A DNA stretch of 64,000 nucleotides from Pontiellaceae bacterium B1224 (GTDB lineage: Bacteria; Verrucomicrobiota; Kiritimatiellia; Kiritimatiellales; Pontiellaceae), in contig JAROBA010000005.1 in assembly GCA_029432815.1 (NCBI GenBank), positions 62,001 to 126,000 on the forward strand, read 5' to 3'. The notes beneath the pieces were generated by a model. It saw nothing but the letters and a program-made list of their open reading frames with translations. It did not search any database and was not told where the DNA came from. The stretch's first letter is position 1. The number at the start of each line of letters is the position of its first letter. Positions 33,000 through 53,878 of this stretch are shown in pieces. The position numbers were made by a program, and so were the translations under genes.

Positions 33000-33032
33000 A
33001 CTTATTATCCTTCGAGGTAGCTTATTGGGACA
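33000..33032 (-). promoter_or_regulatory. TGTCC-N20 promoter-like element of the ten-gene run
   Basis: On the minus strand TGTCCCAAT is followed, 20 nt after TGTCC, by TAATAAGT. This matches the elements at 37787, 39834, 40691, 43892 and 53846. About 107 bp before the sulfatase ATG. Confidence 0.6.
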
Positions 33033-33075
33033 CATAAGCAGCTATTTTGATGATACTGCTGCCGCATCCCGTCAC

Positions 33076-35328
33076 CTACTCCATTTCAACTTTAATACGG
33101 TAGAAACCAACACCGCCGACTTGATGATCGGTATCGGCCCAGCTGCTTTGAGCATAGTCGATTCCATTGGTTACCATCTGCCAGTCGTTGGTTAAGTGAT
33201 CCGTCCAGTAGACGCTGTATACACGCCCCGAAACAGAGAGCCAATCGATCGAAAATCCTGCTTCACCTGAATTACCTTCATTGATCTCAAATACGGCATA
33301 TGGATTATTCGGGTCGGTCCCGGCAATAAACTCAGCCCAGTTGTCATATCCGTCCAGGTCGCTATCTACCGTATTACCGGGATACCCTCCGGGAAAATGA
33401 TAAGCAATCCACTCGGATTTTCCTTCATATGCAGGGAAAAGCTGAATCGCTGTAATCTGACCTTCGGAGGTTGCTGAGGCCCCTCCGTTCGCTGCAGAGT
33501 AGTACGTACAAAAAAGGTATTTACTGCCATCATCATCCACAAAGACCGCCGCCATGCCCATGGAGCTCGGATCGGCAAAATCATCCGGGTCGGCGCCGGG
33601 ATTTACGGATTGAACCGCATCCATGATTTCATCATCTGTAACCACCACATCGAATATATATTGTCCTTCATCATCTTTAGCCACAGTCCATTGCTGGAAA
33701 TCAGGATTACTGAGGTCAAGAACGATCCGGTATACGTCATCATACAAATCCGAGGCCCCCACCTCCCGTACATAGAAAAAGATTTCCAACTGCTCTTTCT
33801 CGGGCATTACATTCATACTGCAATGGTTTATCCGCAAGCTGTTATCTTCTTCGGTCTCACTAAAGATGCGCATACCGGGGTGCGGGTTATTCGGGTGGTT
33901 TTCAAAGGCGGACGAGGCCAGAAATGTGGCCGCCGGGGAATAATAGGAATCCTGCCCAGCGGGATGCGCATCATTGTACCACAGGTCACTTGGCGTCGTA
34001 TCGGGCGTCCATGCCATATAGAAGGGCTCAGCCTTTGACGTTTCAGGATCATCAGCAGGCGGTGCCCACGGGTCGGAGGGGTCCGGCGCCATCGCCATAA
34101 TCGCGCGTTTAGACAGCGAGTAATAGTTGCCCTTGTATTCAAACACATGTTGATAGACATCGCCGAGGACCACCTCCCGCGTGACACCATCAAATGTCAC
34201 CGTCACCGGGCCGTACCCCTCCTCTCCACCCGCCTCAATCGGATCGTTAAAGTTCAGGCCCCAATGGCTCGTAGCCACAAAGTTGGCATGCTGCTGCGGA
34301 ACGTTTTGCCCCCCATCGGTCGAGGTGGATGACTGGTTCTTACCATGGAAATACATGATGATCTGTTGATTGACGTCATCCACATGAACATCCGGCGAAA
34401 ATACGTGATCATAGTCATCACGCGTTGCATCTGAGTCAGTATCAAATACCCCCCTGCGGGCGTTTCCGTTATAGGTGCCGCCCAAATTAAACTCCGTCCA
34501 GGGGCTTTCCAGCGTCTCGGCCCATTTCAGTTGAATATGCTGGCCGGTGTGGTTCGCGAAATACATATAGTAGATCGCATTGGTGGCGGCCCGCTCCGAC
34601 AATGGAACCCAATCCGGCACGCGGATCACCGATGGATTGGCCGAATTTCCGATTGAACGATCGGCAATGACCGCTCCGCCAGCCACCAACTCAAAATCGT
34701 AGGCTTTATTGGTTGTTGATTCAGGTGGTTCAGTCAGATCCGTCGGACTCGTAGCTACTGTAATACTTGTAATTCGAGCGCTGTCGCCGGCCGTTCCCGG
34801 TGCAAAACTTAAATTAAGTGTGGAACCGGCTGTAACAAAGTTGGTTCCCAAACTATGAGTGCCATTCCCATCGCCCACGGTTATATCAGCAAATTCATCT
34901 GTTAGAGACGCAAGGGTGAAAGAACTCCCGCTATCCATACTGTTCAGCACCATGCTGACCAAATAGACGTTGGTGCTGAAGGCAAACTCCCATGCCTCTA
35001 GAGATTCGAAGTTAATGGTTGCGACCTCTTCCGAAGATGAATTAATTCCTAACCCGCCGCTGCTTCCTACGGTCGTATAATGGTCTATTTCGCCACCGGC
35101 TGAGAGACGGGTTCCATCTGTACCAATCACATCGATGTTTGTGAGTGTGACTCCGCCCACGGAGGCCGTTGCGCCGATGCCACCGAGAGCATGATCAGGA
35201 CCGCCGTCAAGATAGCCCTCATTCACGAAGGTATAGGTGATGGGCTCTGCACTTCCGGTTACTGCGGTAAAGACAGCGACCGACATTGCCAATGTAACAC
35301 CCCATTTTTTTGTATTGAAGTTAATCAT
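33076..35328 (-). CDS. Exported beta-propeller protein flanked by recurrent module and TSP3-type tail
   Basis: 750 residues with signal peptide (ending TGSA). Residues ~28-200 are the recurrent module of this window (YLDGG...GVTLTNIDVIGTDGTRLS, LGINSSSEE, WEFAFSTNVYLVSM, SLGTNFVTAGSTL). Residues ~215-620 resemble a five-bladed propeller of the GH43/GH117 kind (SVIRVPDWVP, YYMYFANHTGQHIQL, DHVFSPDVHVDD, FYMAWTPD, RINHCSMNVMPE); catalytic residues are not certain. A TSP3 stretch (SDLDGYDNWAEFIAGTDPNNP, split by me at about 650) and tail ending FYRIKVEME close the protein. It may be a glycosidase carried on a surface module. It has its own upstream gap with an exact palindrome copy, and no TGTCC-N20 element. 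Confidence 0.65.
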   Translation of the reverse strand: MINFNTKKWGVTLAMSVAVFTAVTGSAEPITYTFVNEGYLDGGPDHALGGIGATASVGGVTLTNIDVIGTDGTRLSAGGEIDHYTTVGSSGGLGINSSSEEVATINFESLEAWEFAFSTNVYLVSMVLNSMDSGSSFTLASLTDEFADITVGDGNGTHSLGTNFVTAGSTLNLSFAPGTAGDSARITSITVATSPTDLTEPPESTTNKAYDFELVAGGAVIADRSIGNSANPSVIRVPDWVPLSERAATNAIYYMYFANHTGQHIQLKWAETLESPWTEFNLGGTYNGNARRGVFDTDSDATRDDYDHVFSPDVHVDDVNQQIIMYFHGKNQSSTSTDGGQNVPQQHANFVATSHWGLNFNDPIEAGGEEGYGPVTVTFDGVTREVVLGDVYQHVFEYKGNYYSLSKRAIMAMAPDPSDPWAPPADDPETSKAEPFYMAWTPDTTPSDLWYNDAHPAGQDSYYSPAATFLASSAFENHPNNPHPGMRIFSETEEDNSLRINHCSMNVMPEKEQLEIFFYVREVGASDLYDDVYRIVLDLSNPDFQQWTVAKDDEGQYIFDVVVTDDEIMDAVQSVNPGADPDDFADPSSMGMAAVFVDDDGSKYLFCTYYSAANGGASATSEGQITAIQLFPAYEGKSEWIAYHFPGGYPGNTVDSDLDGYDNWAEFIAGTDPNNPYAVFEINEGNSGEAGFSIDWLSVSGRVYSVYWTDHLTNDWQMVTNGIDYAQSSWADTDHQVGGVGFYRIKVEME

Positions 35329-35347
35329 AAACTGGTTTCTACCGTGC

Positions 35348-35362
35348 TTCCAATGGTTGGAA
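35348..35362. repeat. 15-bp palindrome copy, non-coding
   Basis: TTCCAATGGTTGGAA, exact, 20 bp upstream of the start of the 33076-35328 gene and 40 bp after the neighbouring terminator. Same 15 bases as the coding copy at 31816. Confidence 0.75.
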
Positions 35363-35402
35363 ATTTCGACTCACCCCGTTCGAATCAGTCGTATTACACA
35401 AA

Positions 35403-35431: not shown

Positions 35432-35450
35432 CGCTCAAGAACCCAGGTTT

Positions 35451-37703
35451 CTATTGATTATTTTCAATCTGGAAGAACTCCGCGCTTTTTGTGGTCTTCA
35501 GATAGATCACCTTATTGGTATCATCGCCACTGGCCACGTTGAGGTTTGTGACAGCAAAGGTCCCGTCCGGCGCATCCGAATGAGCTACGGGCGCAAACTC
35601 CCCGAATCCCAGATTGTCCGTACTGACCGGCCAGTAATCGGCCGCATTTGCTTTCACGTCCAGACCGATGTTCAGCTGCACTGTACCCAAGGCTGCGGGG
35701 CTGAACTCACCGATGATGGCCGGCAGATTGTTAACGAAACTGGCCGGATCAACGTTCATGACATCGTTTATACGTAAGATGTTGTTGGAGTTCTTCGCCG
35801 TTGCCAGCAACGTGGGCAACTCCTCCGCATCAAAAGGAATGTCAGACCCGATCTGGATGCCCAGGATGCTTGGGTCGCCAGCGTCACCCATATAGGCATC
35901 ATACGTACCCAGGTACATGTTGATGTTCAGCCAGATCCCGTACCAGGTGTCCTGCTCAACCGCTTCCTCAAGAAGTACATCGCCTCCCGAGGAGTAGGCA
36001 TAAAAGTTTAAGTTACTACCGCCACCATTAAACATCCGGACCCCCACGGAGTAGCCGGTGATTTCCTTTGCGTTGGGGGTTCTGTTTTCGGAAAGACCAA
36101 AGCTGCCATCGGTATCTGCCGCAGTTCCATACATTTCCCAATAGAGCCAATATTCGGAAGTATCGACAGGAATGCCGCTGAACAGATTCGTCGTACTATA
36201 GCATCCCCGATATCCACCACTCCAGCCAACCGACATATACTGGTCAGAACCTTCACCATTGTTGATGTCAGCGAAGCCTGTGGCACTTGAGGCCGTGCCT
36301 TTAGGATCCCAGTTGAGCAAGGCACCCGGTATATCCCGTATGTTGCTGTTAGCACTATTGTCATAAGTATCGAAGGAATCAATGTACACCGTGAAATACG
36401 GACCGCGCTCAACCATCAACGTAACAGTTGCCACTTCACTGGTCGCTACCTCAGTATAGGCTTGGTAGGTGAAGGTTTCGGTGCCGGAGAATCCGAGATC
36501 GGGTGTGTAGACAAATGCTCCATTGGACGAAAAACTTAATGCGCCGTTCGCGATCATAGAATCATCTTCCACAGCATACATCTCGAAGACCGCTGACGTG
36601 TTGGTATCGTTGTTCAGCACATTGCCTGAGATTACAGGTTCATAGGGCGCCAACTCGTAGGTATCATCCAACACAATGGGGATGTCCGGCGCCAGAGTGG
36701 CGAACAACAGAACCGTTGCAGGAGTACTGGTCTCGGTGCCACCCACCACGGCATAGCTGAAGGTATTGGATCCATTCACTAAACCGGAACAGGAGAAGCT
36801 TCCGTCAGGATTGAGGGTCAGAGAACCCGAGGATATATCATTGACCAACACGGCCGATTCGTATCCCAAATCATTGGCCAGCACACCGGGAGCGGCCACA
36901 TTCGTACTGGATACTTCATAGTCCAGAATATATTCATCGTCGTTTGCCACCAAAGTCGAAGGAGTTATTTTCAGGCTGGGGTAATCCGCCGCAAATCCAT
37001 TCCGGACTCGACCCGCAACACCAAACTGATTGCCCGTCGGGAGGTTGGCGGCGGGGATCGTAGCGGCAAGAATATCTCCACCTCCACTACCATCCTCATT
37101 CACAACCGTAAAATTGACCGTCAGATCACCTGCATCGTTAAAACTCCCGTTCAGTGTGAACGTATAGACAGAGCCATCAGCAATCGATCCTGAAGTTCGA
37201 TCCAGGTTGTCAACACCGGCGCCGCTGAAATCATAACTCCGAATACGAATTTGACCGAAGCCCGTCGCACCTTGCTGCGGGTAGAAAAGCGCCGTAAGGC
37301 CATTAGAATTGATTATATCTCCAAAGAATAAAAACCCGTAGCGAGAAAAATTATTCCCCCCTGAAGAACCCATCGTTATGGTGGAACTCACCGAAAAATC
37401 TGTCATAGCCGCAGCGCTCAAATCCGTTTCGACGGCGGCATACGCAGAGGCATATGAATCACTTATTTTTGCCAATTGGAGCGAGTCTGCCAGCGTAACC
37501 AGCGTAGGATCCTCTATTGTCGAATCTGGTGCAGAAACAATAAAAACGCTGTTGGAGCTATTGACGTCTACCTGTCCGGCCCCCGTGCCGAAATCGGCTG
37601 TGTAAGGTGTAACGACCGCGTGTGCAACACCACAGCAAGCCGTCAGACCTGCGATGAGTGCTGCTGTTTTCAATTGATGTATCTTCATTGTTTTTCTCAT
37701 CAT
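35451..37703 (-). CDS. Exported Ig-like/LamG-like multidomain protein
   Basis: 750 residues; signal peptide (ending GVAHA). First a LamG/DUF1080-like sandwich (~35-235), then two bacterial Ig-like VCBS/cadherin-type repeats: ~240-335 (ANDDEYILDYEVSS, PGVLANDLG, LNPDGSFS) and ~340-430 (VLDDTYELAPYEP, VISGNVLNNDTN, FVYTPDLGFSGTETFTYQA). A second concanavalin-like sandwich follows (~435-650, YIDSFDTYDNS, YWLYWEMYG). No catalytic site is seen. Likely a cell-surface or adhesion protein binding polysaccharide. A TGTCC-N20 element stands 84 bp upstream and a terminator 20 bp downstream, so it is a single-gene unit. The C-terminus lacks the FYRV-type tail of its neighbours. Confidence 0.7.
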   Translation of the reverse strand: MMRKTMKIHQLKTAALIAGLTACCGVAHAVVTPYTADFGTGAGQVDVNSSNSVFIVSAPDSTIEDPTLVTLADSLQLAKISDSYASAYAAVETDLSAAAMTDFSVSSTITMGSSGGNNFSRYGFLFFGDIINSNGLTALFYPQQGATGFGQIRIRSYDFSGAGVDNLDRTSGSIADGSVYTFTLNGSFNDAGDLTVNFTVVNEDGSGGGDILAATIPAANLPTGNQFGVAGRVRNGFAADYPSLKITPSTLVANDDEYILDYEVSSTNVAAPGVLANDLGYESAVLVNDISSGSLTLNPDGSFSCSGLVNGSNTFSYAVVGGTETSTPATVLLFATLAPDIPIVLDDTYELAPYEPVISGNVLNNDTNTSAVFEMYAVEDDSMIANGALSFSSNGAFVYTPDLGFSGTETFTYQAYTEVATSEVATVTLMVERGPYFTVYIDSFDTYDNSANSNIRDIPGALLNWDPKGTASSATGFADINNGEGSDQYMSVGWSGGYRGCYSTTNLFSGIPVDTSEYWLYWEMYGTAADTDGSFGLSENRTPNAKEITGYSVGVRMFNGGGSNLNFYAYSSGGDVLLEEAVEQDTWYGIWLNINMYLGTYDAYMGDAGDPSILGIQIGSDIPFDAEELPTLLATAKNSNNILRINDVMNVDPASFVNNLPAIIGEFSPAALGTVQLNIGLDVKANAADYWPVSTDNLGFGEFAPVAHSDAPDGTFAVTNLNVASGDDTNKVIYLKTTKSAEFFQIENNQ

Positions 37704-37786: not shown

Positions 37787-37819
37787 TACTTATGAGCATC
37801 CCACTCGAAAATTAGGACA
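37787..37819 (-). promoter_or_regulatory. TGTCC-N20 promoter-like element of the 35451-37703 gene
   Basis: Minus strand TGTCCTAATTTTCG, then CATAAGTA exactly 20 nt after TGTCC. It sits 84 bp before the start codon. This copy and that at 43892 share TGTCCTAATTTTCG entirely. Confidence 0.65.
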
Positions 37820-38073: not shown

Positions 38074-38092
38074 ATATCCTTCCGTTGGCAGG

Positions 38093-38148: not shown

Positions 38149-39759
38149 TTAGTCGATCGTGACCTTGAGCTGCATGAACTGCTGGTCTTCAGCTGCAGTC
38201 GGCACCCGATTGGTTACCGATTCGAACGTAGCGTCAATTGCACCAGCCCCGACCTCCTCTGTCGCACCGGGTTCTTCTTCAGTTGTCAGATTAAGCGTTG
38301 ATCCAACGGTATAGTCCAATCCACTGTCGGCATAGCGAATCCGGCGGCGATAGACATAGTTCAGATAGTCTGTTCCTCCATCCGAATCTGTTGTCGGCAG
38401 ATACGATGCCGCATCATTCACCAGCGGGTCGGAACCCAGTGCAAATTCCAGCAGGTTATCCATGGAATCAGAATCGGGATCATCGCCATACGCATCGTTA
38501 ATCTCAGCAACTAAATTTTCATCCGAAACCCAGGCCTGATAGCTGTTTTGGTCAGAAACAGACTGAACCGCGATGTAAGCTATACGGATTGAGGTATCGG
38601 ATGCGTTCGTCGTACTGGTCATCTGGATCATGATGTTTGTTCCGGCCGGCAAAAAGGTATCCGACAAGCTGAACGTTCCATCCGAATTATCATCGCCTTC
38701 GCCAAACAAAACAATATTAGTGAATGCTTCAGAAGAAATAGTCATCTCGCCATCGACTGCCATGCTGGCGAAATCGATTTCGTTTAAATAGACATCCGAA
38801 TCGAAGTTAAGAACCCAAGCTTCATTGGGATTAAAATCCCGCGACTCATTACTATAGATTCCGTTATTAGAAGAATTGATCCCCAGCGCATTCCCCGGGT
38901 TGGTATTCACCCAAGTCTTATTCGCGGTGCCCGCGGATGCGAGTGTCAAATCCTGCCCGATAATATCGACGGTTGTGATGGTGATGGCTGTATCCCAGCT
39001 GTTGCTGCGGGTCATGGTTGTTCCGATCACGCCACTATCCATTTCACCGTTATCAACAAATTCGAAAACTGCGGGCGTCAATGGCACATTCGGTTCCACA
39101 TAATCCACATCGGCAATATATTCGAGCACCAAGGCGCCCATTCCGGACTCGGTAAAGTTGGTTCCGCCGCCGAGGACGTCGTCCGCAGAAACATACATCA
39201 CCCAGGTGCCGGTATTATTCAAGGTTAAGGGGTCTAATCCGGATGCATCATAATCCTGAATAAAATCATTCGCGGTATCCGTCAGGGAAAAATTATTTAT
39301 GCCATCGCTGAAAACCAGTGTTTCGTAAGGCTGCGTATTCCATTGGGTTCCAAAACCCGTCGTCTTTAGAGAAAGCAGTTTACCGTTGTCGCCAGAATAG
39401 GACACCTTCAATTGAATCACTTGGTCACCGGTGATCCGTCGATTGGCAGAATTGGTGGGCTCACTGTCATATGTCGCCCCCGCGCCGAGCCAGTTCGGTG
39501 CAATATAGACCGGAACTCCGTTCGTCTCCGTAAAGGTAACCGTGAATTGGAGATTACTGATGGGCGACTCCGCATAACGAGCCGGCGAACCATAGCTGAC
39601 GGAATATTCCGTAGGCGTGACTAAATCATTGGTAACTACATTATAGGCCCAGTTTTTATCTGACCCATCGCCGCCAAATTGAATGCTGTTCGTTATGATA
39701 CCCTGCGATGAAACCGTAAAACCGAACAATACCATACTTATCGCAATGTACTTCCTCAT
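38149..39759 (-). CDS. Exported protein with recurrent module and FMQLK-type tail
   Basis: 536 residues; signal peptide (ending VSSQG). Residues ~20-235 form a beta-sandwich of unknown family (SVSYGSPARYAESP, GTWVMYVSADDVLGG). The recurrent module occupies ~240-400: EMDSGVIGTTMTRSN, TTVDIIGQDLTLASAG, ALGINSSNN, DFNPNEAWVLNFDSDVYLN, MTISSEAF. Then come a TSP3-like linker (DDPDSDSMDNLLEFALGSDP) and the complete C-terminal module, with NYVYRRRIRYADSGLDYTVG, FESVTNRVPTAAE and QQFMQLKVT. No catalytic domain is recognised. This is the best reference copy for the tail seen in decayed form at 40887 and 58033. It is a single-gene unit with its own promoter element and terminator. Confidence 0.72.
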   Translation of the reverse strand: MRKYIAISMVLFGFTVSSQGIITNSIQFGGDGSDKNWAYNVVTNDLVTPTEYSVSYGSPARYAESPISNLQFTVTFTETNGVPVYIAPNWLGAGATYDSEPTNSANRRITGDQVIQLKVSYSGDNGKLLSLKTTGFGTQWNTQPYETLVFSDGINNFSLTDTANDFIQDYDASGLDPLTLNNTGTWVMYVSADDVLGGGTNFTESGMGALVLEYIADVDYVEPNVPLTPAVFEFVDNGEMDSGVIGTTMTRSNSWDTAITITTVDIIGQDLTLASAGTANKTWVNTNPGNALGINSSNNGIYSNESRDFNPNEAWVLNFDSDVYLNEIDFASMAVDGEMTISSEAFTNIVLFGEGDDNSDGTFSLSDTFLPAGTNIMIQMTSTTNASDTSIRIAYIAVQSVSDQNSYQAWVSDENLVAEINDAYGDDPDSDSMDNLLEFALGSDPLVNDAASYLPTTDSDGGTDYLNYVYRRRIRYADSGLDYTVGSTLNLTTEEEPGATEEVGAGAIDATFESVTNRVPTAAEDQQFMQLKVTID

Positions 39760-39833: not shown

Positions 39834-39866
39834 AACTTATGAACATTCAAAACAGAAGTTGGGACA
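39834..39866 (-). promoter_or_regulatory. TGTCC-N20 promoter-like element of the 38149-39759 gene
   Basis: Minus strand TGTCCCAACTTCTG, then CATAAGTT exactly 20 nt after TGTCC; 75 bp before the start codon. Confidence 0.65.
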
Positions 39867-39946: not shown

Positions 39947-40627
39947 CTACATCTTGAAGCGGCGAACGATAAGCGAACCAATGGCACATACGCCTATCAG
40001 GCCGAGCGTTGCCGGTTCCGGAATCGACGAAATCGCAAGCACGAAATCCCTATCCGCTTTGAGAACGTTACTTTCATAGGCCTCGCCGCCCGCATAGACA
40101 TCGCCACCTGTCCCATCAGTGGTACGCAACCATTCGAAGCCGGGATTAAAGTCCCCTCCATTGTCTTCAGTCGTGATCTGGAGCCCGTAGCCTGAGTCTC
40201 CCGCGCTGGCATTAAGTGACAGGGGTGTAGTAAGGTTGATTTGGGCGATACTATCCGAACCTCCTACCGGGGGGAACGTGAACGTATCTGCATATACGAT
40301 GGCACCCTGTACCAGATTAGTCGCATGCACGTCGGTGACTTCGAAAATTGTCAACTTCATATTCCAATCGACGTTTGCGTTGGCATCGGTCTCGTACTCT
40401 AAGTAGATTGCCTGGGCCGAAAACGCGCTGCTTACACTGAAAGTCTGTGCGACGGAATCGTTCGCATCATCACCGAAGTCACCAACATCCGGTGTGGCTG
40501 CGATGACTTCAGCGGAAGTGGGGAATGATCCTCCAGTGGCGATCGTATCCGCCTCAACCGTTACCCCGCAAAAAACTGCTGCCGACAGTGCCAATGCACT
40601 CCATTTTTTCCTGCTCATTTTTTTCAT
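39947..40627 (-). CDS. PEP-CTERM sorting-domain protein
   Basis: 226 residues. Signal peptide to ~26 (ending VTVEA), a beta-sandwich (~30-200) and a textbook PEP-CTERM signal at the end: SSIPEPATLGLIGVCAIGS then a short basic LIVRRFKM. PEP-CTERM proteins are cut and anchored by an exosortase, usually with exopolysaccharide; the exosortase must be elsewhere. The sandwich resembles the two tandem N-terminal domains of the 54659-57982 protein: LTIFEVTDV against LHIFEVADP, FEWLRTTDGTGGDVYAGG against FEWRRSSGAGDFYAGG, and RDFVLAISS against RDALLALSG. So the same sugar-binding-like domain is used in a PEP-CTERM protein and in a tail-bearing protein. Single-gene unit with promoter element and strong terminator. 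Confidence 0.88.
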   Translation of the reverse strand: MKKMSRKKWSALALSAAVFCGVTVEADTIATGGSFPTSAEVIAATPDVGDFGDDANDSVAQTFSVSSAFSAQAIYLEYETDANANVDWNMKLTIFEVTDVHATNLVQGAIVYADTFTFPPVGGSDSIAQINLTTPLSLNASAGDSGYGLQITTEDNGGDFNPGFEWLRTTDGTGGDVYAGGEAYESNVLKADRDFVLAISSIPEPATLGLIGVCAIGSLIVRRFKM

Positions 40628-40690: not shown

Positions 40691-40723
40691 AATATATGAA
40701 CATCCCAAGTCGAGATTAGGACA
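40691..40723 (-). promoter_or_regulatory. TGTCC-N20 promoter-like element of the PEP-CTERM gene
   Basis: Minus strand TGTCCTAATCTCGA, then CATATATT exactly 20 nt after TGTCC; 64 bp before the start codon. Confidence 0.6.
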
Positions 40724-43891: not shown

Positions 43892-43924
43892 TACTTTTGA
43901 TCCGCAACAGCGAAAATTAGGACA
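43892..43924 (-). promoter_or_regulatory. TGTCC-N20 promoter-like element of the GH141-like gene
   Basis: Minus strand TGTCCTAATTTTCG, then CAAAAGTA exactly 20 nt after TGTCC; 60 bp before the chosen start codon. Confidence 0.65.
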
Positions 43925-44302: not shown

Positions 44303-46369
44303 TTAATCCGTTAGAAGCTCAAACTTTTCATTCGATTTTATGGTGGAGCGTAATTCCTGCTCATCAAGTTGCCCGGCCCGAATATAGACCTTACGCAGCA
44401 TCGGAAGATCCAGTGGACTATTCATAAAAACATCTTCACATTCACGAAGGTCGAGTGTTTCAATCTGCAGATTATGAAGGTCCCCAAGATAAAACCGCCC
44501 TTTTAAAACGGGCTTGAAGGTACGAAACGAAAGAAACCGTAACAAACATTCCTGCGAGCCCCATTGATCCCAGATTAACAGCCGGATTTTTTCTTCGGAA
44601 TGCAGGGCCAGTATTGAGTCTTCAACACGGTACTGCAACTTAAGCGGAGCTCTCGGCTCGGTCACATACTCAAGAAGCGACTCTACGACCGAAACATAGC
44701 CATCCCAGTCGGATCGAGCTGCGTGATCATAGGCGACAATCCGCTCCATCAAGGCTGGATGTGTTGAATTAATCGTTCGGGCCTGCAGAAGAAAATCGGT
44801 CAATTGCGGGATTGAGGGACGCTGATTTTCTGAAAAATTAAAGGAGGAAAATGCATCGACCAGTAAGAGATAATCCGCCACATCACTCGTAGGCTCAACC
44901 GGATTTTCAAGTGCGCTCGTAAAGTTCAGCACAATGCAATTCAGCGAGAAACGCTGGAGCCTGGCACTGGCGCAATCAGGATCCAATGCCAAGGCCAAAG
45001 CCGTCAACTTTCGTGCTTCCCGAACAGTTTCAACCGGCCGAATAAAAATGCCAAGCCTTTTGAGATCACTGGCCGACGTCGCCAATTTCCGAGCCTGCAG
45101 GATTCGTTCCTCAGCAGAACGATCCAGCTCTTCCTGATATAAGATCGTAACGGACTCCGCCTTCGATTCAAATCGGGCCGCCCGTTTTTGTTCCAGAGCC
45201 GCTCTCTCCTGTTCCAGAGCCGCCCGTTCTCGTGCCTGAGCCGTTTCACGCTGGTGCCGTTTTAAATTCTGAATAAATAATACGCTAACGACAGAAAGAG
45301 ACACAATCGCAGCAAATGTGATGGCCGCCGGAATCCGATTTCGGGCAAGGAACAGGCGTGCTTCCCGAAAAAATCCCGGCTCTTCAGCAAACGTCGAATA
45401 GCCCCCTAGAAAATTAGCAATTTCATTTCGAAGCTCTTCAGCCGATTCATACCGTTCATCAGGTAATCGTGCCAGCGCCTTCATGGCAACCGCTTCCAAC
45501 GCCTCAGGAATATGCTGTTCCGGATACTGCCGACGAGGTGGCTTCACCATTCCTTTACGCGTTGCTTCAAGAATCTCATCCGGTGACCCAAGAAAAGGCG
45601 GCTGCCCGGTCAAAATCAGATGGAGCATACATCCCAACGCAAAAACATCGGTACGGCGATCTTTCCCGGAGCCGGGAACCACCTGCTCAGGAGCCATAAA
45701 ACCAAGGCTCCCCTTAATCTCTCCCACCAACGTCATATTATCGATCGGTCTCAATGCACGCGGCACGTCATCCTCGCCATCCTCCATTTCACCAATTTGC
45801 TTGGCCAACCCCCAGTCGCACACCAACACCTCTCCAAACTCATCGGACTGGATATTTTCCGGTTTTAAGTCAAGATGAATGATTCCTTTCGAGTGGGCGT
45901 AGGCAACGGCATCGCAGACCTTTAGAAACACATGCAACAGATCACCTCGATCGTTCAGCAGCCGATCGGAGACTTGATCCGCCAGCGTGATATTTCCCTT
46001 CAGATCCATTGTAAAAAAAGGCCGGCCGTCCTCATCAATCCCGGCATCATGAATCGTAATAATATTCGGATGGTTTAACGAAGCGGTCAGCCAGGCCTCA
46101 TGCACAAAAAGATCATAAAACTCCGGACCCCGATCTACCCGCAGCCGCGCCATAGCCACCCAGCGTCGGGTATGCGCATTGAAGGTTTTGTAGACCTCCT
46201 TCACCGCCCCCTTTCCCAGCAGCACACTGTCTTGAAAGCGGACCGTGGATTCTCTCAACTCGGTATACGACGGACAAAGCGACCGCAATCCTTCCTCATC
46301 CAGCAGTGTCGCCGACGCATAAATAGATTGAAGCCGACGCTGCGGCTTATAGGGTTCAAACGGTTTCAC
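44303..46369 (-). CDS. Membrane Ser/Thr protein kinase linked to ECF sigma factor
   Basis: 688 residues. Kinase domain ~45-320: glycine loop LGKGAVKEVY (51-60), catalytic loop IIHLDLKPENI (Asp 167, Asn 172) and DWG (Asp 185) in place of DFG, then GFMAPEQV and GCMLHLILTGQPPFLG. The VAxK lysine position reads WVAMARLR (71-77): Ala 74 instead of Lys; the DNA gives GTG GCT ATG GCG CGG. One transmembrane helix (~346-368) is followed by an alanine/glutamate-rich coiled coil (~370-420) and a C-terminal sensor-like region without recognised family. Its ATG overlaps the sigma-factor stop (ATGA). In related phyla such pairs are thought to pass an envelope signal to the sigma factor; the missing lysine leaves open whether it phosphorylates or only senses. 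Confidence 0.88.
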   Translation of the reverse strand: MKPFEPYKPQRRLQSIYASATLLDEEGLRSLCPSYTELRESTVRFQDSVLLGKGAVKEVYKTFNAHTRRWVAMARLRVDRGPEFYDLFVHEAWLTASLNHPNIITIHDAGIDEDGRPFFTMDLKGNITLADQVSDRLLNDRGDLLHVFLKVCDAVAYAHSKGIIHLDLKPENIQSDEFGEVLVCDWGLAKQIGEMEDGEDDVPRALRPIDNMTLVGEIKGSLGFMAPEQVVPGSGKDRRTDVFALGCMLHLILTGQPPFLGSPDEILEATRKGMVKPPRRQYPEQHIPEALEAVAMKALARLPDERYESAEELRNEIANFLGGYSTFAEEPGFFREARLFLARNRIPAAITFAAIVSLSVVSVLFIQNLKRHQRETAQARERAALEQERAALEQKRAARFESKAESVTILYQEELDRSAEERILQARKLATSASDLKRLGIFIRPVETVREARKLTALALALDPDCASARLQRFSLNCIVLNFTSALENPVEPTSDVADYLLLVDAFSSFNFSENQRPSIPQLTDFLLQARTINSTHPALMERIVAYDHAARSDWDGYVSVVESLLEYVTEPRAPLKLQYRVEDSILALHSEEKIRLLIWDQWGSQECLLRFLSFRTFKPVLKGRFYLGDLHNLQIETLDLRECEDVFMNSPLDLPMLRKVYIRAGQLDEQELRSTIKSNEKFELLTD

Positions 46370-46965
46370 TCAGGGGGCTCCAGCTCTGCAACCAGTGCTC
46401 GAACTTCAAGAAATAGACGCTTCTTTACGCGCTTACGGAGCGTGTAGACCGATGCCACACTCAATCCCGTTTTATCCGCAACCTCAGCGGCGGAAAGGCC
46501 ATCCATTCCCATCTCAAACACAGTCACCGCCTGTCCCTTAAAAACATCTCGCACACGCTCCAAGGCAACCTCGACAACGTATTCTTCCCATTCGGCCTCG
46601 ATCCATTGATCAATCTCTGAAGGAAGATCCTCTCTACCAATTTCAAACTCTTCTCCAAAAGCATGAATACGCTTCAAGTGCCGATTCTTTGTGCGAAAAT
46701 AGGTCAACGCAGCGTTGCGAATCACCATACTCAACCAAGTGCGAAATCGGGCTTTTGACCGATCGTACCGTTCCAGGTCCCGAGTGAGCAAAATGAGTAC
46801 CTGCTGAGAGATATCTTCGATATCTGCCGCATCGACCCCCATTTGATTTAGAATATAATAAATGAACCGGCGGTAATGATTTGAAAACTCCACCCACGCC
46901 TGTTCGTCATGAAGATCACAGGCGCGCTGAAGCAAAGTATAGCTGGTTTGTTTCTCCTCAAACAT
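46366..46965 (-). CDS. ECF-type RNA polymerase sigma factor
   Basis: 199 residues. Sigma region 2 (~10-90): DLHDEQAWVEFSNHYRRF, DAADIEDISQQVLILL and RYDRSKARFRTWLSMVIRN, the usual core-binding and -10 recognition pattern. Region 4 (~135-190): GQAVTVFEMGMDGLSAAEV with the helix-turn-helix VADKTGLSVASVYTLRKRVK. There is no region 3, as expected for ECF. No anti-sigma gene follows; instead the kinase gene overlaps by four bases. Upstream (47061-47095) lies a variant of the same TGTCC-N20 element found before six other units, which suggests the factor may direct its own transcription and that of the polysaccharide genes. That link is inference. Confidence 0.92.
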   Translation of the reverse strand: MFEEKQTSYTLLQRACDLHDEQAWVEFSNHYRRFIYYILNQMGVDAADIEDISQQVLILLTRDLERYDRSKARFRTWLSMVIRNAALTYFRTKNRHLKRIHAFGEEFEIGREDLPSEIDQWIEAEWEEYVVEVALERVRDVFKGQAVTVFEMGMDGLSAAEVADKTGLSVASVYTLRKRVKKRLFLEVRALVAELEPPE

Positions 46966-47060: not shown

Positions 47061-47095
47061 TGTTCATGACCAGCACAATTTCTAATTAGGAGACA
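47061..47095 (-). promoter_or_regulatory. Variant TGTCC-N20 element upstream of the ECF sigma gene
   Basis: Minus strand TGTCTCCTAATTAG: TCCTAATT as in the other copies but with two extra bases after TGTC. Twenty nt after TCC stands CATGAACA. It lies 96 bp before the sigma start. Weaker than the other six copies. Confidence 0.4.
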
Positions 47096-47263: not shown

Positions 47264-49057
47264 TTATTCGACGATTACCCTATAAAACTCCGTATGCTCG
47301 TTTTGCGGGGGTAGAACAACCGTCGTGGTCGGTGGTGTTCCCACCGCATTAGTGACCGTTTCCCAACTACTGCCTATCATGAGATTTAGCTTGCTCTGAA
47401 CAGTGTAGATGAAATCTCCATTCGCATTCCATGTCAGCGAGTTGTCATCATTGATAAGGGCGATGACCGGCACATCGGGTACTGTCGCTTTTGTCGGATA
47501 TCCGTGAATATCGATTTCACGTCCCATAACGCGCCCCCCCGGATTTGCGTCTTCAGAGAAATTAAAGGTGACCGATTTTACGCCGGTTGCCATTACATTA
47601 TGACTGGCCTCAAAAATAGAGACCCTTGTCCAATAAAAGGTCGGATTATTGGGAGCCCAGTTCGTTGCCTCAGCCAGAATGGCTTTCGAATCATCCACAT
47701 AGGTCACCTCCACTTCGTAACCCTGATTGGAGCGCCCTTTACTACCGGTTGTCCACCCGGCAATGCTGACGATATTGGTGATGTCATAACCCAGCGTATT
47801 GACCGACACGTCAAAATCGACCGTAACGCTGGCTCCTGAATCCCACATCACGAAAGCAGTTTCATCGTTATTCGTGATGATCGTCCCCATAATGAGTCCG
47901 TCAAAAAGCTTTGCATGCTGGGTATCGGTGGTTGTTCTGGAATCATTCCCCTTTGTGCCCGAGCTGCTGAGATAATAGATCTGAGCTAAATCGTTTGTAC
48001 TGAAAGCAGGAAACTCCTCAAAATCCGACGACTCGACCGTATAATCAAGTTCGGCTGCGGGCGGTATCTTGGCCTCAATTTCAAACTGAGCCGAATCCAT
48101 ATTTCCGCTATCATCGGTCACAGTCAGCGTTACGGTGTAGATATTCGTCTCCGTATAGGAATGGGCAACACTGATACCCTCTCCCGTGGTTCCATCACCG
48201 AAATCCCAATAATAATTAGTAATGCTTCCGGAGGAGACACTGCTTGATCCATCGAAAACAACCTCGAGCGGGATGCTTCCGAATTCCGGCGTTGCACTGG
48301 CATAAGCAATCGCATAATCTGGCTCAACCGCGTTGTAGAGATTTGCGATTTCGGCCGCCGACAGTTCGTTGTCATACACCCGGAAGTCATCCATTAATCC
48401 CTTGTAAAAAGCGCTCGATCCACCATCGCTACCAATAATGAAGTCCGTGATACCCCCCATGGAACCATTAAACGGCCCTGTAGCTGAACTATCATGCCAA
48501 AGGGCCCCGTTCAGATAAATGGCCATATAGCCGCTAGCAGCATTCTTAGTAAAAGTCCAATAATTCCACGGCCCCCTTAAAACGGAGGCATCAGCGCTTC
48601 CAACATATTTTGAAATGCGATCGCGAACTCCAGTAGTACCCTCGCTGTAAGCCGCATCAAAATAGACCGTCGTGCCGTTGGGCAAATGAACATTGAGCAT
48701 CCGAGTACTACCCGCATACCCTGAAAATCCATTCATATTCTGGGGGTTTGACAAATCGCCCGCACACCAGAATGAAATCGTTAGTTCGTCTGAAACTGTC
48801 GATAAAACATCCCCGAATCCCGAAACCTGGCAATCCGTTCCATTCATATCAAGTGCGCCTCCGCCATCGACCCCGCTCGTCCAAACCGGATTAACCGCCG
48901 TGCCATTGTATCCATTTCCAGATGAGTCGAATGCCGTGGTTCCACTGGTTTCATCAAATGTCCAATGCCCCACCAAAGCGGCCTGCGTTGCAGCACCTAT
49001 CAGTAACCCTGCCACCAGCACACTATTCCGACTCATGACTTTATTTATTGTTTTCAT
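47264..49057 (-). CDS. Exported LamG-PKD protein with FYRV-type tail
   Basis: About 597 residues from the ATG at 49057 (AAAGGA six bases upstream); further in-frame ATGs and a GTG lie up to 49096. Signal peptide to ~26 (ending ATQA). LamG jelly roll ~28-245 (LVGHWTFDETSGTTAFDSSG, GLMDDFRVYDNELSAAEI), the standard LamG_3 pattern. PKD domain ~250-335 (YYWDFGDGTTGEGISVAHSY). Then a discoidin-like sandwich ~345-520 and a C-terminal module ending EFYRVIVE. No catalytic residues are seen; expected to bind glycans at the surface. The tail ending matches the proteins at 4895 and 33076. No TGTCC-N20 element is found upstream. Confidence 0.78.
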   Translation of the reverse strand: MKTINKVMSRNSVLVAGLLIGAATQAALVGHWTFDETSGTTAFDSSGNGYNGTAVNPVWTSGVDGGGALDMNGTDCQVSGFGDVLSTVSDELTISFWCAGDLSNPQNMNGFSGYAGSTRMLNVHLPNGTTVYFDAAYSEGTTGVRDRISKYVGSADASVLRGPWNYWTFTKNAASGYMAIYLNGALWHDSSATGPFNGSMGGITDFIIGSDGGSSAFYKGLMDDFRVYDNELSAAEIANLYNAVEPDYAIAYASATPEFGSIPLEVVFDGSSSVSSGSITNYYWDFGDGTTGEGISVAHSYTETNIYTVTLTVTDDSGNMDSAQFEIEAKIPPAAELDYTVESSDFEEFPAFSTNDLAQIYYLSSSGTKGNDSRTTTDTQHAKLFDGLIMGTIITNNDETAFVMWDSGASVTVDFDVSVNTLGYDITNIVSIAGWTTGSKGRSNQGYEVEVTYVDDSKAILAEATNWAPNNPTFYWTRVSIFEASHNVMATGVKSVTFNFSEDANPGGRVMGREIDIHGYPTKATVPDVPVIALINDDNSLTWNANGDFIYTVQSKLNLMIGSSWETVTNAVGTPPTTTVVLPPQNEHTEFYRVIVE

Positions 49058-49209
49058 TTTCATTCCTTTTTTCATTTTTGTGACGTTTCTCCACACAAAA
49101 AAATGCTGCCGATTCTACGCCCCCCACATCGCATCAGTTTCATACTTCACACTGATTCTCGACTAATAACTTTTCGACCCTGTAAAATCAGGAAAATCGC
49201 GACGACAAA

Positions 49210-50940
49210 CTATGGCTCAGACGGAGCATACAGCTCAAATTCCCAGATCGTCGGCCCGGCTGTCGCTTCCATAATCTGCAAACGGAATCTGGAGCCCGTA
49301 ACCGTTGGGAACTCATCCTTCTGGCTATTTTCGGGGTTTCCTCCGACGAACACCGTTTCCCAGCCCCCGTTATTCACCTGAATTTCATACGAACGTATGC
49401 GGTCTTTATATTCCACAATTTTTGCGCCATTCACCGAAACCGGCGAGCCGAAGCCCACTTCGATCCAAGGCGTCGACTCACCGGTTGAAGCCCAGCGCGT
49501 TGACAAGCTGCCATCGAACGCTTTCTCCACCGAATAGCTGGAGCTATGCGTACTGCTTGCACTCACAGATTGATTCTGCGCAATATTTGGTTCCGTCGAA
49601 ACTTCGGGAACAATGGGAATACTGTTACCCACCACCTCAACCTCAGTAAGGCTCAGCGCATGTTCACCCGCCAGCTGGACCTTAACATATTGGCCGATTT
49701 TACCCCCCACCGGTACGGTTGTCGGACGTTCCGCCGGTGCGGCCTGATGGCTGGACCAGACCTCAGTCTGTTTTTCATCTAATACGTATATCGTATAATC
49801 ACTGAGTTTCGCCGCACCACCGGCCCCGGTCTGGTTCCAGATGTTGATCTCATTAAGGAAGTAATCTTCTCCGAGATCCACCTGCCACCAGGCATTCACC
49901 TCACGTTCAGTGCACGTTACAGATGCATCGGCTCTCTTGCTGCTGGTCTGACCATCAATCGCTCTTCCAGGCTCTGCGCCATAGGCTGTACTGGACTGTG
50001 TGGCCGTTTTATTCAACGCAAGATTATAAGGAACAGGAGCCACGCCGTCTTTCGTTTGAACCACTTTTTTAATGGTTCCATCCTCATTATAATATAAGTA
50101 ATCAATACATACCGAACGTCTGTGACTGCGGCCACTAAGCGCTGTGTTATGATAGAAAATATACCATCGCCCCTTGTACTTGACGATCGAGTGATGATTG
50201 GTCGCGCCCCCTGTAACCTCAGCATCCATCAGAATGCCTTGGTAGATAAACGGCCCCATCGGAGAATCGCTGGTGCAATAGGCGATCGGTTTTTGTACAC
50301 CGGTTGCATAGGATAAATAATAGATTCCATTTCGTTTGTGCATCCATGGCGCTTCATAAAAATTTTGAATCTCTAAGTGCGTCACGCCTCCATGCGTCTT
50401 CATATCATCATTCAGTTCCACAATTCTTAACTCACCATAATGACCGCCCCAATAGAGATAGGCCTGCCCGTCATCGTCAATAAAACAGGCCGGATCGATC
50501 TCGTCTGTTCCCTCGATATACGATCCCGAGTCTGTAAAAGGACCGGAAGGCGAACGGCTCGTTGCAACGCCAATTCGATTCTTATTATTCTTATCCCGCG
50601 CCGGGTAATAATAATAGTAGGTGCCGTCTTTATAGGCACAGTCCGGAGCCCATAAATGTCCGCGTTTGGCCCAGTTGATATCATCCGTATGCATGATCTG
50701 CCCATGATCCGTCCACGTCACCAGATCCTCCGAAGAAAATACATGATGTCCATTCATCGAACCATAGCTCGTTGCATTATCCTGATCGTGCGAAGGATAA
50801 ATCCACATCTTGCCGTCTTCCCAGACATGTGCTGATGGGTCTGCTGTAAATAGGTGGGTGATAATAGGGTTCGCCCCAAACGACAGGTACCCCATCGATG
50901 AGGACAACATCACCGCTGCAACCATTTTTAACTTCTTCAT
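49210..50940 (-). CDS. GH43 glycosidase with two discoidin-type (CBM32-like) domains
   Basis: 576 residues; signal peptide (ending LSFGA). Five-bladed propeller ~23-310 with the three GH43 acids visible: base Asp 34 in FTADPSAHVW, Asp 149 in DEIDPACFIDDDG, acid Glu 196 in NFYEAPWMHK. RGHLWAPDCAYKDGTYYYY and DAEVTGGATNHHSIVKYKG are typical of the arabinofuranosidase/xylosidase/galactosidase subgroup. F5/8 type C domains follow at ~315-440 (ALNKTATQSSTAYGAEP, WWQVDLGEDYFLNEI) and ~450-575 (AFDGSLSTRWASTGESTPW). They would hold the enzyme on its polymer. It lies 68 bp after a close paralogue and in the same transcription unit. Confidence 0.92.
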   Translation of the reverse strand: MKKLKMVAAVMLSSSMGYLSFGANPIITHLFTADPSAHVWEDGKMWIYPSHDQDNATSYGSMNGHHVFSSEDLVTWTDHGQIMHTDDINWAKRGHLWAPDCAYKDGTYYYYYPARDKNNKNRIGVATSRSPSGPFTDSGSYIEGTDEIDPACFIDDDGQAYLYWGGHYGELRIVELNDDMKTHGGVTHLEIQNFYEAPWMHKRNGIYYLSYATGVQKPIAYCTSDSPMGPFIYQGILMDAEVTGGATNHHSIVKYKGRWYIFYHNTALSGRSHRRSVCIDYLYYNEDGTIKKVVQTKDGVAPVPYNLALNKTATQSSTAYGAEPGRAIDGQTSSKRADASVTCTEREVNAWWQVDLGEDYFLNEINIWNQTGAGGAAKLSDYTIYVLDEKQTEVWSSHQAAPAERPTTVPVGGKIGQYVKVQLAGEHALSLTEVEVVGNSIPIVPEVSTEPNIAQNQSVSASSTHSSSYSVEKAFDGSLSTRWASTGESTPWIEVGFGSPVSVNGAKIVEYKDRIRSYEIQVNNGGWETVFVGGNPENSQKDEFPTVTGSRFRLQIMEATAGPTIWEFELYAPSEP

Positions 50941-51008: not shown

Positions 51009-52619
51009 CTAGGGAGTCGGCTCAGCATACAACTCCAGTTCCTTGATGGTCGGCCCGTCAGTCGCTTCCGTAACCTGCAAACGGAACTTGGAGCCGGTAA
51101 CAACGGGGAAAACAACCTTCTTATTTGAACTGGGGTTTCCACCGGCAAAAGCCGTTTCCCAATCCCCATTAAACACCTGAATTTCATACGAACGAATACG
51201 GTCACGATATTCCACAATTTTCACGCCATGTACTGTAACGGCTGAGCCGAAGTCCATCTCGATCCACGGAGTCAATTCACCGGTTGAAGCCCAGCGCGTT
51301 GACTGGTCGCCATCGAATGCTTTATCCACCGAGTAACGGGAGCTATGCGTACTGCTTGCACGCGCGGATTGATTCAGCGCAATATTCAGGTCCGTATCAA
51401 CTTCAGGAAGAACGGGAATACTGCTGCCCATCACCTCGACCTCAGCAAGGCTTAATGCATTTGTACCGGCCAACTGAATTTTAACTGTTCTTCCAACTGC
51501 ACCACCCACAGATACGGTTGCGGGGCGTTCGGCCCCTGCGGCCTGATGACAGGACCAGACTTCAGCCTGGTGGCTATTCAATACTGAAATCGTATACGCA
51601 CTGAGTCCGGCAGCACCGGTTTGGTTCAATATATTGATATCATTGATAATATAGTCTGCACCCAGATCCATTTGCCACCCAGAGGCTGTGCTGGACTGTG
51701 TGGCAGATTTGTTCAACGCAAGATTGTACGGAACAGGAGCAACGGACTCCTTCGTTTGCACCACCTTTTTGATGGTTCCATCCTCATTGTAATACAGGTA
51801 ATCAACACACACGGAACGTCTGCAGCTAATATCACTAAGCGCTATGTTATGATAGAAGATGTACCAGCGCCCCTTGTACTTAACGATCGAGTGATGATTG
51901 GTGGCGCCCCCTGTAACCTCAGCATCCATTAGAACACCACGATAGGTAAATGGGCCGGTCGGGGAAGGACTCGTGCAATAGGCGATCGGTTTTTTCACAC
52001 CGGTTGCATAGGATAAATAATAAATTCCGTTTCTTTTATGCATCCATGGCCCCTCATAAAAATTGGGCAGTTCTACATGCGTTACTCCGCTGTGACTCTT
52101 CATGTCATCATTCAATGTAACAAATCGTAAGTGATGACCGCCCCAATATAAATACGCCTGTCCGTCATCATCCACAAAGCAGGCCGGATCGATCTCATCG
52201 GTCTCCGCAATAAATGATCCCGAGTCTGTAAAAGGACCGGCAGGAGAGCTGCTGGTTGCAACGCCAATTCGATTCTTATTTTCCTTATCTCTCACGGGAT
52301 AATAATAGTAGTAGGTTCCATCTTTATACGCACAATCCGGCGCCCACAAATGCCCGCTGCGGGCCCAGCTGATATCGTCCGTATGCATGATCTGCCCATG
52401 GTCCGTCCAGGTCACCAGATCCTCCGAAGAAAACACATGATGCCCGTTCATCGAATTATAGCTCTTCGCATTATCCTGATCGTGCGAAGGATAAATCCAC
52501 ATCTTGCCGTCTTCCCACACATGGGCCGACGGATCCGCTGTAAACATATGCGTGATGATGGGATTCGCCCCGAAAGACGGCAATACCATCACTGCCAAAA
52601 ACACCTTTAACCTCTTCAT
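51009..52619 (-). CDS. GH43 glycosidase, tandem paralogue with shortened first discoidin domain
   Basis: 536 residues, colinear with the 49210-50940 product and nearly identical over long stretches of the propeller (SHDQDN, MNGHHVFSSEDLVTWTDHG, DAEVTGGATNHHSIVKYKG). The catalytic triad is kept: base Asp 29, DEIDPACFVDDDG, FYEGPWMHK. Note FYEGPW for FYEAPW. In the first discoidin domain ALNKSATQSSTASG jumps directly to WQMDLGADYIIND, an in-frame loss of about 31 residues including the AIDG loop that usually shapes the ligand site, so this domain is probably not functional. The second discoidin domain is complete. The pair is a tandem duplication followed by divergence. It starts 31 bp after the GH86-like gene. 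Confidence 0.9.
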   Translation of the reverse strand: MKRLKVFLAVMVLPSFGANPIITHMFTADPSAHVWEDGKMWIYPSHDQDNAKSYNSMNGHHVFSSEDLVTWTDHGQIMHTDDISWARSGHLWAPDCAYKDGTYYYYYPVRDKENKNRIGVATSSSPAGPFTDSGSFIAETDEIDPACFVDDDGQAYLYWGGHHLRFVTLNDDMKSHSGVTHVELPNFYEGPWMHKRNGIYYLSYATGVKKPIAYCTSPSPTGPFTYRGVLMDAEVTGGATNHHSIVKYKGRWYIFYHNIALSDISCRRSVCVDYLYYNEDGTIKKVVQTKESVAPVPYNLALNKSATQSSTASGWQMDLGADYIINDINILNQTGAAGLSAYTISVLNSHQAEVWSCHQAAGAERPATVSVGGAVGRTVKIQLAGTNALSLAEVEVMGSSIPVLPEVDTDLNIALNQSARASSTHSSRYSVDKAFDGDQSTRWASTGELTPWIEMDFGSAVTVHGVKIVEYRDRIRSYEIQVFNGDWETAFAGGNPSSNKKVVFPVVTGSKFRLQVTEATDGPTIKELELYAEPTP

Positions 52620-52650
52620 AACAACTCCATTCTATCATTGTACATTACAT

Positions 52651-53808
52651 CTATTTTGCCCGGGCGATGATCAACTTCGGGCGCAGCCCTGTGTCCGCAT
52701 GCTCCTTCGACGCGATCTGAACCACACGCCCGTCATAATGATAATCACCCGGCGTGTAGTAGCTGTTTTCATATTCATTCACATTATATCGGACCAACCG
52801 CACAACCACGAACGTGACATCCAGCGGCGCCCCATCTTCAGAAATGGATTTGATCGTATCGGTTACATCCAGATAGTTCTCAACATATTCCGACGAATGA
52901 AAAGAAACGGCACCGACGAACTCACCACAAAGGCCTAAACCTGTTACGGGACCATCGGTAAACCCGCGCGTAATGCCCCCATAGTTATACGGCAGCTTTT
53001 GGCTGACGTAACTCAGTTTGTTGCCCAGCCCCACCAAAGGTCCCTTTGACTGAGGTACCCCCAGCTTAAATATAAATATGCCGCCATCATCGCCCAATCC
53101 AGCGGGACCATGAACGGCTGAAACCTCCAGAATCTGAGCCATACTGATTCCAAACAACAAATCTTCGGTATCAATCTGCCTGCGGTCAAAATTTCCACCC
53201 GTACTCGTGTTATATTCCGTAATCACCAGAGGAATGTCGGCATTAGGATCGTTACGTGCGTTGGCAATACCTTTCCGGGCATTCAACATAATTTCTTCCG
53301 ATCGGGCGGCATCTTCTCCATAGCGATGGTAATCATACATGCCATAGTTCCAGGGATTGGAATCGCTATGCTTCCCATAGATGTCCGTTTTAACTTTTTC
53401 CCAGGAAACACTCCCCCAGCCATGGGCGTCCTCCGATGGATACGGATGATCCCAATCAATGTAGAAGTTCGATGATTTTGTCTGCCTTAATGGATCCTTC
53501 CGAATCGCTTTCGACGCCATAGCAAAAGCAGCTGCAGAGGTGATGCCACGGTCATCCGCCAACGAAGAAAAAGAAGGTTTAAACCAGGTGCGATGTTCGG
53601 TAATTCCATACCAATTAAAATAATCATAGCCCGTCGTGAGTGCCGGATCGCCGCTGGCCCCCATTATTCTCGGGATGCGATAGCCATTCGGAGCTCCAAG
53701 AACGATCGAATATTCCTCCAGGGCAGCACCGGCCGAAGCCCACCCCGCCATCACTACAACTATTCCTGGCACCCAACCGATCACCTTCAATACACTCTCT
53801 CTCCACAT
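52651..53808 (-). CDS. GH86-like enzyme (agarase/porphyranase type), internally shortened
   Basis: About 385 residues from the ATG at 53808 (MWRESVLKVIGW, hydrophobic export signal to ~25); an in-frame start at 53835 would leave almost no leader after the promoter element. YDYFNWYGITEHRTWFKPS, RGITSAAAFAMASKAIRKDP, YGMYDYHRYG and PLVITEYNTSTGGNFDRRQ are GH86-like, the last holding the probable nucleophile Glu. GH86 enzymes are usually 600 residues or more. Here the sequence passes from KDPLRQTKSSNFYIDWD straight to the DYHRYG part, and I find no Asn-Glu-Pro acid/base segment. So about a third of the barrel seems lost and the enzyme is likely inactive, or a binding protein. The exact palindrome at 53348 is read as SNPWN close to the shortened part. 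First gene of a three-gene unit with both GH43 genes. Confidence 0.6.
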   Translation of the reverse strand: MWRESVLKVIGWVPGIVVVMAGWASAGAALEEYSIVLGAPNGYRIPRIMGASGDPALTTGYDYFNWYGITEHRTWFKPSFSSLADDRGITSAAAFAMASKAIRKDPLRQTKSSNFYIDWDHPYPSEDAHGWGSVSWEKVKTDIYGKHSDSNPWNYGMYDYHRYGEDAARSEEIMLNARKGIANARNDPNADIPLVITEYNTSTGGNFDRRQIDTEDLLFGISMAQILEVSAVHGPAGLGDDGGIFIFKLGVPQSKGPLVGLGNKLSYVSQKLPYNYGGITRGFTDGPVTGLGLCGEFVGAVSFHSSEYVENYLDVTDTIKSISEDGAPLDVTFVVVRLVRYNVNEYENSYYTPGDYHYDGRVVQIASKEHADTGLRPKLIIARAK

Positions 53809-53845
53809 CACTCTTGTACGAGGCCTTCGTGCCACGAATTCAATT

Positions 53846-53878
53846 ACTCATAAACCGCGTGATGTAGAAATTGGGACA
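53846..53878 (-). promoter_or_regulatory. TGTCC-N20 promoter-like element of the GH86-like/GH43 unit
   Basis: Minus strand TGTCCCAATTTCTA, then TTATGAGT exactly 20 nt after TGTCC; 38 bp before the chosen start codon. Confidence 0.55.

Follow-up and report, generated by a model that had tools for sequence, protein, structure and literature searches.

In the polysaccharide-utilisation loci of Bacteroidota, sugar-degradation clusters are controlled by an extracytoplasmic function (ECF) sigma factor whose gene they contain, and an anti-sigma factor that is coupled to a TonB-dependent transporter keeps this sigma factor in check. A different partner is found in the ECF43 pairs, EcfP-PknT of Vibrio parahaemolyticus and EcfK-PknS of Xanthomonas citri, in which the ECF gene lies beside that of a membrane Hanks-type kinase without an anti-sigma gene and, for EcfK-PknS, has its target genes in the same region (PMC8999054, PMC13147305). 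ECF43 members have lost the DxxD motif of sigma region 2.2, and phosphorylation there switches them on (PMC8999054, PMC13147305). ECF59 and other groups of the 2021 classification, compared here by their descriptions, are also predicted to be kinase-linked, some of them with an acidic sigma2.2 (PMC8999054). Our literature search found no member of the Verrucomicrobiota ECF family described below with a promoter. We analyzed a window of 64,000 nucleotides (contig C160:62001-126000) in the 5.38-Mb draft genome of Pontiellaceae bacterium B1224, where an ECF gene and a kinase gene lie among genes for exported sugar-degrading proteins preceded by a two-block element, TGTCCYAAT-N16(17)-CATAAGTA. This element is very probably the -35/-10 promoter of the kinase-paired ECF sigma factor (46366-46965), private to the cluster, with the kinase as the likely switch. 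Control of a cluster by an ECF factor encoded within it, as we propose here, would be shared with the Bacteroidota loci, while the partner there is an anti-sigma factor and here a kinase. The gene arrangement resembles that of the ECF43 pairs and the location of the targets that of EcfK-PknS, yet the Pontiellaceae-type ECF factors keep D/E-xx-D in sigma2.2, their kinases are of WNK type, the predicted target genes encode saccharolytic and surface proteins, and the system exists in multiple copies whose promoters differ by clade.

The window has exactly six copies of the core TGTCCYAAY. Each is intergenic and on the minus strand, with 60-107 bp between the end of the site and the start codon (Table 1). 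Dinucleotide shuffles of the window predict 2.2 +/- 1.5 copies; since chance would by itself supply about two cores, the evidence is not the core but its position and company. For the core plus the -10 block at fixed spacing, four exact sites were found against approximately 0.3 expected, and allowing one mismatch gave five two-block sites, a number reached in none of 100 shuffles. In the consensus, an A-tract is followed after about 10 nt by the two blocks, which stand some 16-17 nt apart upstream of genes in the manner of a predicted promoter. The original prediction, made from the letters of the window, had placed seven sites, all at correct coordinates, and every gene unit that it named has a site, although the listing order was scrambled. 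The YAAT that it described after TGTCC holds in general, with CAAC at 39834-39866 as the departure. Its spacing of exactly 20 nt between blocks applies strictly at four sites, whereas 33000-33032 and 53846-53878 can be read with 20 or 21 and are better read with 21, their -10 core (AATAAGT and TATGAGT, respectively) being shifted one base further out. The variant reported upstream of the ECF gene exists and is better delimited as 47061-47093 than as 47061-47095, while the GH86 identity suggested for the gene at 52651-53835 has no Pfam support.

The host genome was examined as a whole by pattern searches, together with sampled stretches. The gapped pattern TGTCCYAAY-N14-18-MWWRWRT has six matches in the genome (four for the backwards control), all of which are in the cluster, five inside the window and one about 4 kb outside. 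TGTCCYAAY alone occurs 63 times, compared with 115 for a control pattern, and eight of the 63 copies are concentrated in 35 kb of the window contig (binomial P ~1e-8, or ~3e-6 once roughly corrected for the choice of window). All eight TGTCCYAA sites of the cluster are intergenic and 40-115 bp upstream of a start codon on the same strand, a placement for which 1.25% of positions qualify, while copies elsewhere in the sampled genome are mostly within or across open reading frames (ORFs) or in unrelated repeats. A genome-wide search of the kind proposed with the original prediction returns a gapped pattern confined to the cluster. Two divergent sites outside the window, at contig positions 130314(-) and 130403(+), adjoin a second ECF/kinase pair (C160:132799-135422, 7-10 kb past the window end) whose proteins are 64% and 63% identical to those of the window pair; this neighboring ECF factor probably uses the element as well. 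Around the more distant ECF paralogs of the host, the motif was not found apart from look-alikes within ORFs. A housekeeping promoter was ruled out, as the rest of the genome lacks the pattern.

Two further searches recovered the motif. A matrix was built from the sites of other species only, including six of the seven TGTCCYAA sites at locus G008:C213 (G### and L### label genomes, C### contigs), and was then scored over 513 kb on both strands. The six best matches are all sites of the cluster, with scores of 26-36, the highest being that at 39834..39866, and the next best match reaches 16.9. Unsupervised counting of dyads in upstream regions, without any prior motif, ranks TGTC-20-TCAT as the top two-block dyad of this cluster and, counted separately, as the first at the orthologous loci. 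A-tracts about 12 nt upstream of TGTCC also score in this counting, consistent in sequence with an UP-like element.

The same promoter surrounds ECF orthologs that are 60-77% identical to the window ECF in related species. Close relatives of this factor are encoded in same-genus genomes and, by name, in Pontiellaceae B12219 and B12227, a Kiritimatiellae MAG and Verrucomicrobiota JB023. Sites were found near ECF orthologs in G008, G016, G004, L088/G302 and L089/G286 (paired labels), with seven TGTCCYAA copies at G008:C213, three at G016:C22, two at G004:C1, two in L088 and one in L089, mostly 50-110 bp upstream of starts. Site 43892..43924 is directly downstream of the kinase gene, and this placement of a promoter after the kinase recurs at orthologous loci. 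At G008:C250, a full site is located 87 bp upstream of the ECF gene itself. Same-genus genomes without the window ECF clade have no site clusters, only scattered single matches at chance level, and the same level of scattered matches was seen in genomes of the phylum with only distant ECF factors. In another class, where ECF factors of 50-60% identity have the -35 form TGTCCCAAW, the locus with a 59-60% identical ECF (L089/G286) keeps TGTCCCAAA and a recognizable -10 block. Near the 50-56% identical relatives in G359, G288 and G323, the -35 block is retained and the -10 block drifts, which makes the full consensus unsuitable for these relatives.

Table 1. Predicted promoter sites, regulators and downstream genes in the window
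Feature	Coordinates	Strand	Details
Promoter site TGTCCCAAT-N17-AATAAGT	33000..33032	-	Intergenic, 107 bp 5' of sulfatase gene 31469-32893
Promoter site TGTCCTAAT-N16-CATAAGTA	37787..37819	-	5' of Ig-domain exported protein 35451-37700; matrix score 29.3
Promoter site TGTCCCAAC-N16-CATAAGTT	39834..39866	-	75 bp 5' of exported protein 38149-39759; matrix score 35.9
Promoter site TGTCCTAAT-N16-CATATATT	40691..40723	-	5' of PEP-CTERM protein 39947-40627; matrix score 34.1
Promoter site TGTCCTAAT-N16-CAAAAGTA	43892..43924	-	5' of GH141-like beta-helix protein 41058-43832; matrix score 26.6
Weak variant site TCTCCTAAT-N16-CATGAACA	47061..47093	-	5' of ECF sigma gene; one -35 mismatch
Promoter site TGTCCCAAT-N17-TATGAGT	53846..53878	-	5' of unit 52651-53835 / GH43 / GH43 / LamG-PKD
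ECF sigma factor, 199 aa	46366..46965	-	TIGR02937 65.5 bits (cutoff 42.9); Sigma70_r2 5e-15
Transmembrane Ser/Thr kinase, 688 aa	44303..46369	-	Pkinase 1.7e-35; stop/start overlap with ECF gene
Sulfatase gene, head of ten-gene run	31469-32893	-	Sulfatase E=1e-62
Ig-domain exported protein	35451-37700	-	Big_9
Exported protein	38149-39759	-	Behind site 39834..39866
PEP-CTERM protein	39947-40627	-	PEP-CTERM above cutoff
GH141-like beta-helix protein	41058-43832	-	GH141_M and Beta_helix
Four-gene unit	52651-53835, 51009-52619 (GH43), 49210-50940 (GH43), 47264-49096 (LamG-PKD)	-	GH43 domain matches

A second sigma clade has a promoter of its own. In the ECF tree, the window ECF falls within an eleven-row clade (support 88), and a separate clade (SH-aLRT 98) in two other Pontiella-type genomes goes with GTTWAG-N15-YCGTWT, similar in geometry to the TGTCCYAAT promoter and different in sequence. 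The form TGTTWAGG-N12-15-TCGTAT has five matches in 8.7 Mb, all inside 18 kb around the ECF gene G004:C2:251222, and the single further match among the 28 genomes searched has another spacing. GTTTAG-N15-YCGTWT has nine matches in the 8.7-Mb genome, eight of them within 71 kb in one orientation and surrounding two ECF/kinase pairs. Of the seven matches in the second large genome, five are near its members of the clade, and matches there precede sulfatase genes. Several sites of this type are 26-71 bp upstream of genes for signal-peptide sulfatases. Compared across these loci, the predicted promoter motif and the sigma clade change together, and the family is, by its sequences, multiplied with at least two promoter codes. 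Among other candidate motifs at paralog loci, those of G004_C1_3794 turned out to be one repeated stretch, those of G021_C2_451 and G027_C12 failed as promoters, and TGTCCA-N-CGTC at G021_C1_942 is a candidate only.

The window ECF is of the group 4 type, with sigma2 and sigma4 only; its Sigma70_r4_2 match (25.2 bits) is just below the cutoff of 25.7. It does not belong to the Rhodopirellula/Verrucomicrobium ECF family TIGR02989 (47.3 bits against a cutoff of 124.55), nor to ECF43, in which sigma2.2 has Thr in place of the lost DxxD, as it reads D-IE-D at this place. D/E-xx-D is retained in 54 of 56 ECF homologs. The host genome has seven further ECF homologs, and two Pontiella-type genomes have 13 and 19. 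A kinase homolog adjoins nearly every ECF homolog examined, and in the window the kinase gene is adjacent with no anti-sigma gene present. ECF/kinase units also lie close together at G016:C22.

The paired kinases carry an active site of WNK type. The window kinase has K57 in the glycine loop and an alanine, A74, where the beta3 lysine would be expected, and residue alignments place K55 (glycine loop) with A72 (beta3) in 54 of 55 paired kinases, the sole exception, C126, having the usual pair G55/K72. An alignment with PknB gives the same lysine placement. E91, the catalytic D, N171 and D184 are invariant in the 42 kinases tabulated; with the beta3 lysine absent, a lysine at 55 and the remaining catalytic residues kept, the anatomy is that of WNK, and because these other residues are intact, the kinases are likely to be catalytically active. 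Eukaryotic WNK likewise has its catalytic lysine off beta3, at glycine-loop position 55 (PMC1821047), and Kannan et al. (2007) describe Wnk as the only functional family of eukaryotic-type protein kinases that lacks K72 (PMC1821047). The paired kinases differ from it in having HLD for HRD and DWG for DLG, and the window kinase is not WNK by descent, as its best solved matches are PknB with no WNK among the best 60. Since its closest solved relatives are bacterial and PknB-type, the likeness to WNK is presumably convergent. The 2025 review of bacterial pseudokinases (the review itself, as distinct from the full classification underlying it) describes no such WNK-type bacterial family (PMC12599244), and none was found in further literature searches. 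AlphaFold2 prediction of the full kinase with seven sequences gave a mean predicted local distance difference test score of 50, below 50 in the kinase domain and moderately confident only at residues ~510-688. Residues ~345-688, after the membrane helix, are predicted to form helical repeats that lead into a short region rich in strands, and this modeled part may possibly be the sensor.

The analysis confirms the element and makes a stronger case for it than the original prediction could. Its proposal that the ECF/kinase pair or a paralog drives a saccharolytic surface-protein regulon is supported by a pattern that is absent elsewhere, follows the ECF ortholog and switches with the clade, although the regulon, with its exported saccharolytic targets, is narrower than a general surface regulon, being private to the cluster. 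The self-regulation it included is clear at G008:C250 and weak in the window, where the variant before the ECF gene scores 12.3 and is a possible autoregulation site; only six other non-cluster matches in the 513 kb outscore it. The adjacent membrane kinase would be the likely sensor, perhaps of a glycan-derived signal, and would activate the sigma factor, presumably through phosphorylation; the activated sigma factor would recognize the motif and transcribe the genes for exported sugar-degrading and surface proteins that are private to the locus and, in some species, its own operon. Several observations weigh against this scheme. Besides the weakness of the window ECF's own site, a close ECF ortholog (G016:C22:140220) has no site upstream, known sites number only ~1-8 per locus, and some gene units of the clusters have none. 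A low-power de novo search for private motifs at ~35 paralog loci gave most of them no signal above the null, so that a rule of one pair, one promoter is documented for two clades only. Nor can the action proposed for the kinase be explained by the mechanism through which kinases activate ECF43: as the acidic sigma2.2 residues are kept, activation by supplying charge is not expected, and linker phosphorylation or kinase-dependent release is more likely. The wider proposition, that in Verrucomicrobiota an independently invented WNK-type kinase controls its own ECF factor and that each sigma clade reads a cluster-private promoter, stands in our judgment at about even chances.

The stronger conservation of TGTCC than of the -10 block in the information of the matrix columns is what an operator might show, and the two blocks could be bound by another DNA-binding regulator, one whose gene also lies in the cluster, with the housekeeping sigma factor transcribing the genes. 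We consider this unlikely given that the spacing is ECF-like, the second block resembles a -10 element, the blocks lie 60-110 bp before starts, the ECF factor and its kinase are the regulators found linked to sites in the compared loci, and the motif changes with the ECF clade. About equally improbable is that the promoter belongs to an ECF factor encoded elsewhere in the genome and is used here by happenstance. The host does encode seven other homologs, and the neighbor at contig 134811-135422 (26 kb from the window ECF gene) is similar enough at 64% identity that the two may share targets, but the motif is missing at the distant paralogs and follows the window ECF clade across species. A dispersed repeat, or a chance match without promoter function, is a very improbable reading of the element: a core of 8-9 bp is indeed expected about twice in the window, but the recovery of the sites by the foreign-trained matrix and the presence of eight out of eight in so small a share of sequence space already refute chance. 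A repeat would have alignable flanks, and a mobile repeat was ruled out because the sequences flanking the sites are unlike one another and do not align. Recognition by the kinase-paired ECF factor remains our preferred reading.

Judged by a simple rule of hydrophobicity, nearly all first genes downstream of the sites encode exported proteins, compared with ~45% of ORFs in the sampled stretches. Among them are sulfatase, GH43, GH141-like, carbohydrate-binding module and Ig-domain proteins and, repeatedly, PEP-CTERM proteins. Many of the exported proteins in the predicted regulon have a common C-terminal tail, F-E/D-x-VTN...F-M/Y-R/Q-L/V-K/I or FYRI/FFRIE, as in 38149-39759 (FESVTN...FMQLKVTID) and 35451-37700 (FFQIENNQ), which by sequence may be a tag for sorting or for the cell surface. 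The sulfatases number 521 in Pontiella desulfatans and 480 in P. sulfatireligans (PMC7356697), and the regulators mentioned for sulfatase control in the literature examined are two-component neighbors only (PMC10880615). The system described here offers a concrete, testable answer, with a readable promoter code, to the question of how sulfatases in such numbers are controlled. Private signals suggest a way in which marine degraders of sulfated sugars could switch each of many sugar-degrading clusters separately; if the wider proposition is right, insulated, locus-private sigma-promoter pairs would let one cell switch its sugar clusters one by one. These are natural candidates for insulated sigma-promoter pairs, and the kinases form a family in bacteria that seems to have acquired the WNK rearrangement of the active site independently.

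Other repeated sequences were observed during the searches. TGTCCTAAT occurs in facing pairs 40-60 bp apart in G000 (C77:43509/43564, C130:44805/44844, C153:26082/26120 and C193:137029/137083), the pair on C193 reading TGTCCTAATTATTCTGTATAA-type; these are probably the ends of a small mobile element unrelated to the promoter. The palindrome TTCCA-N5-TGGAA is hugely over-represented, with 158 copies in 464 kb compared with none for the reversed control, and TTTTCCA-N5-TGGAA has 543 copies per strand genome-wide, again with none for the control. It occurs within and between genes, for example at C160 1231, 1415, 11268, 13024 and 27482 and at C22 10386 and 10414. Palindromes resembling GGACCGTTGTCCCAACGGTCCG are repeated within 700 bp at G000 C138:131626-132330.

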